From Fidelibacterota bacterium (lineage in GTDB: Bacteria; Pseudomonadota; Alphaproteobacteria; Rhodospirillales; Rhodospirillaceae): DNA of 33,327 bases. A program made the position numbers and the translations under genes. Under the pieces are notes generated by a model. The model saw only the letters and a list, made by a program, of their open reading frames with translations. It was not told the origin of the DNA and made no database searches. Position 1 is the stretch's first letter. Every line of letters begins with the position of its first letter. Below are positions 17,294-26,977 of this stretch, piece after piece. The stretch covers positions 1 through 33,327 of the forward strand of contig CANJOI010000009.1 in assembly GCA_947475365.1 (NCBI GenBank). The letters run 5' to 3'.

Positions 17294-18619
17294 ATGATCC
17301 CAGCCGTCTATTTCCCCATCGAAATTCAGCACCGGGAGTTGCCGTCACGGCTCACGATCGCCGCGCACCTTCTCGCGCGAGGTTTCACCGTCGTCATCGG
17401 CAGCCATTGGTCGCTGATAACCGAGACGAATCAGAAGGCGCTGCCGCCGGCGCTGTACCTGTTCAAATCCGTCAACCGGATTCAGGGCAACGCCATGCAG
17501 TCCGTGGCCACCCACGGGCATATCGCGGCCGCCAACGACGAAGAAGCCCTCAACGCCGTGGGCGACAGCGGCTACGCCGTGGCGTTCAGCGAGAACGCCG
17601 CCGATGCCTGCGCCCTGTTCTTCGCCCAAAGCGAAACCCATCGCGCCGCCATCGCGCGCCGCTTCCCGCGCCTGGCGGATAAGATCCGCGTGAGCGGCAA
17701 TCCGCGCCTGGATATCATGCTGCCGCGAAATCGCGGCATGTTCGACACCGCCGACCCGCGCGCGGAAACGTGCAAACCGTACATCCTGTTCAACACCAAC
17801 TACGGCACCATCAACAGTGTCTGGAACGACCGCCAGGGCGTCGTGGCGGTGGCGGAAGCCGCCGGCGCGTTCGACGGCGAGGATCGCGCGGCCAAGATCG
17901 CCGAGTTCGATGCCATCGTGGCGTGGGAGAAAGCAAACTTTCAGGCCATGACCGCGCTGTTGGCCTGGTCGGTGGAGAATATCCGCGGCGTGAATTTCGT
18001 CGTGCGGCCCCATCCCGCCGAACGCGTACGCCATTGGGAGAAGATGCTGGCAAAGCTACCGGGCGCGCGGCTCATCGACCGTTCAGACCCGCACCCCTGG
18101 ATCGCCGCCGCGCACCTCGTTGTCCATACGGGCTGCACCACCGGGCTGGAGGCCGTGCTGCTGGGCCGTCCCGCGCTCAACCTTCTGCCGCATGATCACC
18201 CCACGTGCGACCGTATCGTCACCTATGCCAACCCGACGGTCCGGAGCTGGCAGGACGCCGCCCGGGCCATGACCGAGTTCCTTCAAAACGGCAACGGTCC
18301 GATCACCACCCACGATCCCTCCGCCGCCCTCGATACTTATCTGCCAAGCTACCGCGACAACGCCGCGGCTCGACTTATGGCTGATGGCTTGATCGACGAA
18401 TTGGCGCGGCACGGCGTGCGCGGCGGCGGGGCGGCGTTCGCGCTACGCGGGCCGTGGTTCGAGAAGCCGGTCAACGACCTGATGCGCCAGAAATACGACG
18501 TCAATGCCGGCGATATCCAAACCGGACTCGCAACCGCGGCGCGGCTCGCGGGAGTCGCATTCAGCGCCGAAATGGAAACGCTGGCCCCCGGTACATTTGT
18601 CCTCAAGCCCACCGGCTAA
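17294..18619 (+). CDS. Surface carbohydrate biosynthesis-type protein (GT-B-like fold), copy 1
   Basis: [41 protein letters not shown]...[17 protein letters not shown]...VVRPHPAE...[33 protein letters not shown]. Confidence 0.85.
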   Translation: MIPAVYFPIEIQHRELPSRLTIAAHLLARGFTVVIGSHWSLITETNQKALPPALYLFKSVNRIQGNAMQSVATHGHIAAANDEEALNAVGDSGYAVAFSENAADACALFFAQSETHRAAIARRFPRLADKIRVSGNPRLDIMLPRNRGMFDTADPRAETCKPYILFNTNYGTINSVWNDRQGVVAVAEAAGAFDGEDRAAKIAEFDAIVAWEKANFQAMTALLAWSVENIRGVNFVVRPHPAERVRHWEKMLAKLPGARLIDRSDPHPWIAAAHLVVHTGCTTGLEAVLLGRPALNLLPHDHPTCDRIVTYANPTVRSWQDAARAMTEFLQNGNGPITTHDPSAALDTYLPSYRDNAAARLMADGLIDELARHGVRGGGAAFALRGPWFEKPVNDLMRQKYDVNAGDIQTGLATAARLAGVAFSAEMETLAPGTFVLKPTG

Positions 18620-18670: not shown

Positions 18671-20047
18671 AACATCGCGACCTGTGATACGGTCGCGCGT
18701 CGCACGTCATCCGGAGAGCCCGTCGTCTATCTGCCCGTCGAGGTCAAGCATCGCGAACTGCCCTCGCGCCTGACGATCGCGGCCCATGTGCTGCAGGCGG
18801 GATACAGCGTGATCGTCGGCAATCACTGGTCGATGACCCACCCGCACAACATCCCCGTGCTGCCGCAGGGCCTGTACCTGTTCAAGACCGTCAACCGGCT
18901 TCAGGGCAATCTCATGGGGATGGCGCGCGGCGGCGGTCATACGGTGGCCGCCACCGACGAGGAAGTGCTCGTGTTCACCGATACACCCGGCTACATGCTG
19001 GTGTTCGCCGAGAACGCGGCCGCCGCCTGCGAGCTGTTCTTCGCCCAGAGCGAGGCCCATAAGCAGGCCGTTGAAACCGCCTACCCGCATCTCGCCGGCA
19101 AGGTGAAGGTGGTGGGCAATGTGCGCATCGACCTGCTGACGCCCAAGAACCGCACCGCCTTCGAGACCCATGACGACCGCGTGGCGCCCTTGCGCCCCTA
19201 TATTCTTTTCAACACCAACTACGGCACCATCAACAGCGTCTGGGGCAACGACCCGGAGCGCCTGCTCAGCATCGCCGCGGCCACCGGCATGTTCGACGGC
19301 GAAGACAAGATGAAGAAGTACGGCGAGTACAAGGCGGTGGTGGCGTGGGAGCAGGCCAACCTGCGCGCCATGACCGAGCTGCTGCAGTGGACCATCGCCA
19401 ATGTCCGCGGGCTCAACATCGTGCTGCGCCCGCACCCCGCCGAGAAGCCGGAGTACTGGCAGAACGTCATTCAGGGCGCGCCCAATGTGCACGTCATTCC
19501 GCGCTCGGACCCGCACCCGTGGATCATCGGCGCCAAGCTGGTGGTCCACACCGGCTGCACCACCGGGCTGGAAAGCGTGCTGCTGGACAAACCGGTCTTG
19601 AACCTCGCGCCCGCCGACCATCCCAACTGCGCCCAGATCGTGAGCGAAGCCAATGCGGTGGCGCGCACCGTGGAGGACGCGGCCCAGGCCATCACCATGT
19701 ACCTCTCGTCCCGCAGCGGCCCGATCACCACGCACGCCGAGCAAACGGCGGCGGCACTGCATAAGCATCTGCCGAGCTACCGCGACGAAGCGGCGGCGCG
19801 CCTGATCGCCCAGGCGCTGGCGGAGGAACTGGGCCGGCGCGGCGCCGTGCCTAAGCGCAACTACGCCCTGCAGTGGCGCGGGCGCTTCACGCCCATTGAG
19901 CGCGACGCCTGGCAGAAAGACAAATACATGTGCACCGGCAGCGAAATGCGCCGCGCGCTGCGCCATGCGGCCGAAACCGCCGGGGTGAATGTGAAAACCC
20001 GCCTGGGCGAGATCGGCGAAGGCCTGTTTATGGTGACGCCGGCTTAG
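18671..20047 (+). CDS. Surface carbohydrate biosynthesis-type protein, copy 2 (tandem paralogue; start codon unclear)
   Basis: Open frame extends upstream of the called GTG (18788) and encodes [38 protein letters not shown], aligning with the copy 1 N-terminus; the rest is strongly similar throughout. 18671 is the limit of the open frame, not a proven start. Confidence 0.8.
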
Positions 20048-25741: not shown

Positions 25742-26170
25742 CTACCCGCCCGGCACGGCCGATGACAGGACCCATATGGAGGGGAGGATGGCGACGATGA
25801 CGAACAGGATGCTGATGTTGGTCACGGCGCCGGACATGAAGAACGCGGTCTGGGTGTCCACATTGGCGGCCTGTTCCAGAACCGCGTCGTGAAATTCGCG
25901 CGCGGGCGTGCGGGCCGGGCGCGGGCCGCGGCGCCGCCCGTTGCGCGCCTCGCGGCCCAGGTCCGCGGCTGACCGGCGGAAGACCTCGGCGCCGAGCGCG
26001 CCCCAATTGGCGAAGCCGTACTCGCGCGCGAGGGCGCTTTGCGCATCGGCCAGGCGGGCGTCCGGCTGCACGGCGCGCATTTCGGCCAGGCGCGCCTTGG
26101 CCTGTTTGCGCAGATGATCCAGATGCGGGCGGCGGGGAAGCACGCGCTTCCCGGCGAAAACGATGGTCAT
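25742..26170 (-). CDS. Small protein with LRKQAK...LADAQxALAREYGFxxW motif and C-terminal transmembrane helix
   Basis: ATG at 26170 preceded by a purine-rich stretch; HLRKQAKARLAEMRAVQPDARLADAQSALAREYGFANWGALGAEV; C-terminal hydrophobic segment GAVTNISILFVIVAILPSIWVLSSAV. Confidence 0.75.
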   Translation of the reverse strand: MTIVFAGKRVLPRRPHLDHLRKQAKARLAEMRAVQPDARLADAQSALAREYGFANWGALGAEVFRRSAADLGREARNGRRRGPRPARTPAREFHDAVLEQAANVDTQTAFFMSGAVTNISILFVIVAILPSIWVLSSAVPGG

Positions 26171-26335
26171 TTCAAATACCCCACTTCCTTGGCGCCCGGG
26201 GTCCGCAAGACACGGGCAGGAAGTCAGGTGTGACCCAACGTAGAACGATGACGAGCGGGCTAAGCCCTTTGCGCGGACAGCGTGCCTCTCGGAAGGCTTG
26301 CAAGCATAGGCCTGGGCGGCGGCGGCGAGCAATAC
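26134..26335 (-). repeat. Leader repeat copy 1 (5' region plus first codons)
   Basis: Aligns by eye with 26781..26977 over its full length, with long identical blocks and short indels. Confidence 0.9.
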
Positions 26336-26361
26336 AAACTTCGCAATATAAAGTTGCGGGT

Positions 26362-26814
26362 TCACCGTGGCGGCGCCGGTGCGCCCATCAGCGCCGCCAG
26401 CGCGCGCGTGCGCCGCACGGCGCTCTTGAACCGCCGGCTCATGCGCAGCTTTTGCCCGTTCCTGAGGCGCAGTTCGGCGGCGCCCTTTGCCAGCGGCCGG
26501 ACGCTGGCGATCTCCGCGATATTGACCGCCCAGGACCGGTGGATGCGGACGAACCGCTCCTCGCCCAGTTCGGCCAGCAGGCTGCCCAGGCTGCGGTGAT
26601 GGAAGTAGTCCTTCCCGTGCATGAAGATCCGCACGTAGTTGCCGTCCGCCGCCAGCGAGACAATCTCGCGCCAGTTCACCGGGCGCATGACATCGCCGAT
26701 GGAGATGAGGATCGTCTCGGCCTTTGCAGCCGGGCGCACGTCCGCCTCTGTACGCACGCGCTCCGGGTGGTGGGGGTGGAGGGGAAGCACGCGCTTCCCG
26801 GCGAAAAAGGTCAT
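26362..26814 (-). CDS. LytTR DNA-binding domain protein
   Basis: VNWREIVSLAADGNYVRIFMHGKDYFHHRSLGSLLAELGEERFVRIHRSWAVNIAEIASVRPLAKGAAELRLRNGQKLRMSRRFKSAVR: LytTR signature. Confidence 0.92.
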   Translation of the reverse strand: MTFFAGKRVLPLHPHHPERVRTEADVRPAAKAETILISIGDVMRPVNWREIVSLAADGNYVRIFMHGKDYFHHRSLGSLLAELGEERFVRIHRSWAVNIAEIASVRPLAKGAAELRLRNGQKLRMSRRFKSAVRRTRALAALMGAPAPPR

Positions 26815-26977
26815 GGCAATACCTTCCTTCCCAAGCGCCCGGGGTCCGCGTGGACGGGCAGGAAGTCAGGTTTGACCTAACAGATGCGATGACGAGCGGG
26901 CTAAGCCCTTCGCGCGGACGGCAGGCCTCTCGGGAGGCAAGGCGAGCATAGGCCCGGGCGGCGGCGCCAAGCAATAC
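26781..26977 (-). repeat. Leader repeat copy 2 (5' region plus first codons)
   Basis: See 26134..26335; lies directly upstream of and into the LytTR gene. Confidence 0.9.

Follow-up and report, generated by a model that had tools for sequence, protein, structure and literature searches.

In the window, which is the whole stretch of 33,327 nucleotides analysed here, a repeat is found that is well supported, on comparative grounds, as a structured 5' leader RNA of about 110 nt with five helices, namely P1, P3, P4 and the pseudoknots P2 and P5. The same RNA is present in ten or more bacterial phyla, nearly always before genes that start with one and the same N-terminal domain, which suggests a portable cassette for self-regulation.

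The duplicated unit in the window

The repeat consists of two near-copies of about 200 nt on the minus strand, at 26134-26335 and 26781-26977. A search of the genome against itself gave 83% identity over 197 nt (E=1e-49), and no third copy exists in the 340 contigs (3.5 Mb) of the assembly; the near-copies described by the first-pass annotation were thus confirmed. In the repeat listing for the window, this duplication accounts for the families D2 and D4-D7. The copies are hereafter called copy A, which leads a LytTR gene, and copy B, which leads the gene of a putative membrane protein (Table 1). Elsewhere in the window, two neighbouring paralogous genes on the plus strand (17294-18619 and 18788-20047; 441 and 419 aa) are probably a tandem duplication.

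Table 1. Leader RNA copies, their helices and the adjoining genes in the window
Feature	Position	Strand	Basis or remark
LytTR-domain gene, 150 aa	26362..26814	minus	Pfam PF04397, E=3.4e-20
Gene for N-terminal domain plus hydrophobic C-terminal segment, 142 aa	25742..26170	minus	domain profile, E=8.3e-24; translation
RNA copy A core, leader of LytTR gene	26837..26947	minus	covariance model R1, 80.5 bits; alignment and pair counts
Copy A P1	26938-26935/26928-26925	minus	
Copy A P2	26919-26914/26849-26844	minus	
Copy A P3	26908-26905/26901-26898	minus	
Copy A P5	26932-26929/26896-26893	minus	
Copy A P4a	26859-26855/26841-26837	minus	
Copy A Shine-Dalgarno stretch GGAAGGAAGG	26822..26831	minus	first five bases pair with CTTCC at 26865-26861 (P4b)
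RNA copy B core, leader of membrane-protein gene, same five helices	26194..26306	minus	R1, 75.5 bits; all 29 listed pairs standard
Hairpin GGGAAGC-GCGT-GCTTCCC in first codons, 7 bp	26134..26151 (also 26781-26798, LytTR gene)	minus	sequence; weakened in sister species

Fold of the leader and masking of the Shine-Dalgarno sequence

P1 is the 5' hairpin, and its loop is joined by P5 to a strand lying 3' of P3, so that P1 and P5 cross. P2 pairs GTCCGC with GCGGAC. The P3 hairpin directly follows its first arm and the second arm sits in the loop of P4, with which P2 crosses. P4 itself is formed by GCCCG/CGGGC and, past a bulge or loop, by an anti-Shine-Dalgarno strand paired with the Shine-Dalgarno sequence. 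As the latter is the 3' arm of P4, the ribosome-binding site is hidden in the folded RNA.

The three helices GCCTC/GAGGC (P1), GGGC-TTA-GCCC (P3) and GTCCGC/GCGGAC (P2), already proposed from the window alone, are present in both copies and are supported by the relatives. The two most telling helices had been missed, namely P4, the one masking the Shine-Dalgarno sequence (GCCCG/CGGGC plus CTTCC/GGAAG), and the P5 pseudoknot (CGAG/CTCG). A further AGGT/ACCT helix is not a feature of the family; the stretch is absent from the Azospirillum copy. The hairpin proposed in the first codons does exist, and the sister species retains it with one pair fewer, but it is not seen in more distant members; it is a local coding feature outside the RNA family.

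Among the relatives' genes that were scored, the Shine-Dalgarno sequence is overlapped by the P4 stem in 88 of 96, with a median stem of 9 bp. When this pairing was tested separately, the anti-Shine-Dalgarno and Shine-Dalgarno arms of each sequence paired better with each other than arms swapped among the sequences did (0 of 200 swaps as good). From the end of the core to the start codon, the median distance is 20 nt. Masking of the Shine-Dalgarno sequence by the leader is, on these alignments, well supported. An ON state in which the conserved GNAAAGGG would pair with the anti-Shine-Dalgarno strand was also considered and dropped, as there was no sign of it (27 of 200 swaps as good). A scan for promoters and terminators found no promoter-like site and one terminator-like site, which is no more than expected by chance. 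Single-sequence folding is unremarkable (z of -1.7, +0.2 and -2.1) since pseudoknots lie outside that model, and such folding would have missed the element.

Compensatory changes and selection on base pairs

The suspected repeat was recognised as an RNA through its first distant relatives, in which the stems differ by compensation: GGGC/GCCC becomes GGGT/ACCC, and CTTCC/GGAAG becomes TTCTTTC/GAGAGAA. Three alignments bear on the fold. In the largest, 91 members were aligned to R1, a covariance model built from 68 pattern-found and window sequences, and both pseudoknots were added. Here, 94.4% of the pair cells are paired as against 37-44% when the arms are slid, 17 of 24 pairs have changed on both sides, and none of 500 shuffles does as well; the alignment was fitted to P1, P3 and P4a, so that the counts for those three lean towards structure, while P2 and P5 are absent from the model. 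In the alignment of 68 sequences, two-sided changes occur in 12 of the 13 pairs of P1, P3 and P5, P2 and P4a being invariant because the search pattern fixed them. Most of this pattern bias is removed in a set of 24 model-found and domain-found members. In that set, P2 is 100% paired, five of its six pairs show two-sided changes, and the covariation score is reached by 0 of 500 shuffles. The variants of P2 include GCCCGC/GCGGGC, ACCTGC/GCAGGT, ATCCGC/GCGGAT and TTCCGC/GCGGAA, as well as ACTCGC/GCGAGT in an AT-rich genome.

A similar constraint is seen between the two window copies themselves. When their structured regions are aligned, only 1 of 58 paired positions has changed, as compared with 30 of 89 among the unpaired. 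The sole paired difference is a G-C to G-U change which preserves the pair. Both copies, including copy A before the LytTR gene, have thus stayed folded since their parting, and selection on base pairs after the duplication is visible within a single locus.

The suggestion of a cis-acting RNA is therefore strongly supported, by compensation in each of the five helices across phyla and by pair selection between the window copies. The computed checks for homologues and for covariation found both, which favours a functional RNA over a chance local duplication. With its compensatory changes, its fixed site upstream of the start codon and its expression platform, the leader has the marks of what is, by all appearances, a structured cis-regulatory RNA.

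Distribution of the RNA

When 385 genomes from the class were searched at the DNA level, one other family yielded a 71% match, and this too lies upstream of a domain-type gene (LPxRPxLDHLxKxAK...ATARDYGFASWxxLKxHV). A protein search with that N-terminus of about 60 residues found two more genes, both with the leader upstream, which the nucleotide search had missed. Two weak DNA matches (G181 and G111) were dropped as their alignment showed no common structure.

The RNA was then sought by a pattern that fixes only GTCCGC, AAGG, GCCCG, GCGGAC and CGGGC plus their spacing. With one genome taken per species, the scan gave at least 118 loci in more than 100 other genomes; even when GC-rich genomes are allowed for, chance matches would amount to a few at most. 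Among the matches listed, the carriers belong to Acidobacteria, Gemmatimonadetes, Planctomycetes, Actinobacteria, Chloroflexi, Alpha- and other Proteobacteria, and further to Rokubacteria, Latescibacterota, Binataceae, Poribacteria and Eremiobacterota. Cultured carriers include Amycolatopsis rubida (L079), Azospirillum cavernae (L134) and Nitrospirillum iridis (L129). Viral contigs gave no match to the pattern. When 399 Pseudomonadota genomes were searched with R1 and no pattern, 24 matches were obtained at E<=1.5e-5. Weaker R1 matches (L211, L213 and L215-L218; E of 1.5e-4 to 9e-4), which had no adjoining domain gene, were dropped. Two RNA copies, divergent or in tandem, were also observed at L084 (4561-4831), L170 (3749/5227) and L173 (839/4512), so duplication of the cassette recurs.

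The domain encoded beside the RNA

In 114 of the 118 loci among the matches listed, a gene that begins within 200 nt after the RNA starts with one N-terminal domain of about 60 aa, for which a profile was built from 51 such N-termini. The other four comprise an operon whose second gene encodes the domain, two apparently broken genes and one bare RNA. The operon is that of L185 (Sphingosinicella), in which the RNA is followed by an SRPBCC-like gene and then by an overlapping domain-ankyrin gene. By comparison of coordinates, 21 of the 24 pattern-free RNA matches adjoin the domain as well; the three exceptions are the LytTR copy, a broken gene in which remnants can still be recognised (L204), and a doubtful match without a P2 partner. 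The association also holds from the side of the protein. All 16 of the strongest domain matches in the same 399 genomes carry the RNA, 14 of them found by the model and two recognised by visual inspection, in related species whose version has diverged. Weaker domain matches include genes without the RNA, such as the Glyoxalase_8-type genes (L247).

The C-terminal partners of the domain, in the 20 proteins scanned, include ankyrin, TPR, LON, Clp_N, nuclease, DUF3471 and glyoxalase domains, with LytTR joining them in the window. Most copies of the domain are basic, with a positive net charge in 48 of 51 and a mean of +4.7, and AlphaFold2 predicts three helices with a mean pLDDT of 85. Foldseek of this prediction against the PDB gave no significant match and no nucleic-acid-binding relative, a profile search of the PDB sequences gave no significant match either, and PADLOC returned ankyrin-repeat similarity only. 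The nearest neighbours, the N-terminal part of Pfam Glyoxalase_8 (PF20066) and NCBIfam NF004629, are weak and mostly below cut-off. NF004629, a family named 'DNA helicase', is matched by 15 of the 51 domain members, so the domain family may reach the helicase N-terminus, a hint of a nucleic-acid role. In L239, L240 and L246, domain-bearing glyoxalase-type genes have another, palindromic leader, with GTAGGGCGC...GCGCCC adjoining the ATG and an AAGGG..CCC hairpin; it looks like a separate, REP-like element.

What may read the leader

The folded leader would be the OFF state, in which translation is inferred to be low as the ribosome-binding site lies within a helix. The function of the gene varies while the domain stays, and therefore the domain encoded right after the leader is proposed as the reader, as in autogenous leaders, thereby closing a feedback loop. 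As with autogenous leaders, the RNA sits on the very gene that encodes the proposed reader, the operon of L185 adding a case in which this gene is the second. That the domain reads the leader RNA in this way is considered somewhat more probable than all the other readings together. RNA and domain would then make up a cassette whose protein part has been fused to many effectors. In the window genome, the cassette would have been duplicated, one copy keeping an intact domain on a membrane-anchored protein and the other being joined to the LytTR gene, where the domain decayed and the RNA remained intact. The membrane-anchored domain may thus act in trans on LytTR translation besides its own. The full proposal, a portable autogenous cassette of a double-pseudoknot RNA and an RNA-binding domain that serves unrelated proteins in at least ten phyla and controls LytTR in trans in the window, is held more tentatively, at slightly less than even confidence.

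Several observations speak against autoregulation. The strict link between the RNA and the domain could be hitch-hiking, the leader travelling with the N-terminus in C-terminal fusions. This linkage is the strongest counter-argument, for a riboswitch would give the same association. No significant nucleic-acid-binding relative came out of the fold search, and some genes of the wider family are without the RNA. Furthermore, the RNA of copy A is kept before a gene that has lost the domain, although feedback in cis would have no use for it there. This RNA outlasted its own domain and hence is of use even where no domain is encoded in cis; its retention fits trans control by the membrane-anchored domain next to it just as well as it fits a small-molecule ligand.

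Such a ligand is the premise of a metabolite or ion riboswitch with the same fold and the same Shine-Dalgarno masking, in which the domain co-occurs through a shared response or through the joint travel of leader and N-terminus. A compact double-pseudoknot leader with the Shine-Dalgarno sequence in its expression platform is a typical riboswitch architecture. The few unpaired bases of GNAAAG are strongly conserved, even in the pattern-free members, and both the L185 operon, with its unrelated first gene, and copy A, with no intact domain, agree with this explanation. However, no theme of enzymes or transporters is found downstream, the N-terminal domain being the only common feature, and the riboswitch is regarded as the less likely reading, though it is the strongest competitor.

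An RNA thermometer, or another trans-acting protein or stress signal as the reader, with the folded RNA opening on heat or stress, would likewise explain a Shine-Dalgarno sequence masked by the leader, and LON or Clp_N domains do occur in some partners. Yet two conserved GC-rich pseudoknots exceed the needs of a thermometer and the partners have no common stress theme, which makes it quite improbable. A promoter or operator acting at the level of DNA, for LytTR (as the first-pass annotation had also offered) or for another regulator, can be set aside almost entirely: it would account for two copies close to the LytTR gene, but the compensatory changes in five helices and a site adjoining the Shine-Dalgarno sequence contradict it, as does the fact that among about 140 homologous RNAs only the window copy precedes a LytTR gene, that of the sister species leading another gene.

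History of the locus

Returning to the proposed cassette, its traces are found in both genes of the window. The 142-aa protein carries an intact domain (LPxRPxLxxLxKQAK...ADAQxxxAREYGFxxW), and its orthologue in the sister species is 62% identical. In the LytTR gene, codons 1-11 belong to the duplicated module, codons 12-30 or so are a decayed remnant of the N-terminal domain, and LytTR follows. The remnant has about 70% identity over 50 nt to the domain gene of the sister species, which 0 of 1000 codon shuffles equalled. Hence the two proteins, which had been called unrelated beyond their shared MT..FAGKRVLP start, are not wholly so.

Among 18 other genomes of the same genus, one, the sister species (G007), has the leader, in a single copy. 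It heads an operon on the minus strand (L026, 5080-10370), in which a domain/membrane gene, an HlyD-type adaptor, an ABC ATPase and two permeases are followed, as the last gene, by LytTR; the gene names were assigned by reading the translations. Of this LytTR-linked efflux operon, the window genome retains only the two end genes. In another genome of the genus (G013), a response-regulator gene is directly followed by a VWA gene and the segment is absent.

As the sister species has other genes between them, the adjacency of LytTR and the membrane-protein gene is not conserved and arose in the window lineage, where the two adjoin because the intervening efflux genes are missing. The simplest course would be a duplication that took in the leader and the beginning of the first gene, in addition to the absence of the efflux genes. 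The duplicated codons and the decayed remnant of about 50 nt in the LytTR frame support such a duplication of leader and gene start together.

Relation to known systems

In Rfam 15, no match was found at the gathering threshold for the window or for the loci of 10 relatives, and permissive scans of the window, L071 and L195 gave chance-level matches only (best E=0.52). In the survey papers on bacterial RNAs that were consulted, no motif linked to ankyrin or glyoxalase genes is named; an earlier listing without a name may exist in supplements or in a main survey. As far as could be checked, the leader thus appears to be an RNA class not described before.

Riboswitches of the SAM-II and preQ1-II type are compact pseudoknot leaders with the Shine-Dalgarno sequence in or beside a helix. 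The window RNA is likewise a compact pseudoknot leader with this sequence in a helix, but it differs in helix order and sequence, has two pseudoknots, and has neither a metabolic gene theme nor an Rfam match. Glyoxalase_8 and NF004629 resemble the RNA-linked domain in their N-terminal stretches, whereas domain members match them weakly, mostly below cut-off, and Glyoxalase_8-type genes occur in three genomes without the RNA. The streptococcal pairs HdrRM and BrsRM, to which the locus had been likened, also have a LytTR gene adjoining a small membrane-protein gene. This analogy fails, however: the neighbourhood in the window is a by-product of gene loss, genes intervene in the sister species, the segment is absent from another genome of the genus, and the membrane protein bears the RNA-linked domain. 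A further parallel lies with the autogenous leaders of ribosomal proteins (for example those in PMC7247131), which also stand directly upstream of the gene for the reader and control translation by occluding the Shine-Dalgarno sequence. In contrast to these, the present leader is non-ribosomal, its proposed reader is a portable domain fused to unrelated effectors, and it has no match in Rfam 15.

Significance

A widespread structured RNA that is unmatched in Rfam 15 and has one near-constant domain partner is rare. If its ligand is a small molecule, the leader would be a candidate orphan riboswitch, and one with many members. Should the proposed reading by the domain hold, bacteria would possess a mobile feedback module open to fusion with any protein, and for a large group of their ankyrin-repeat proteins, so far uncharacterised, there would be a first control handle.
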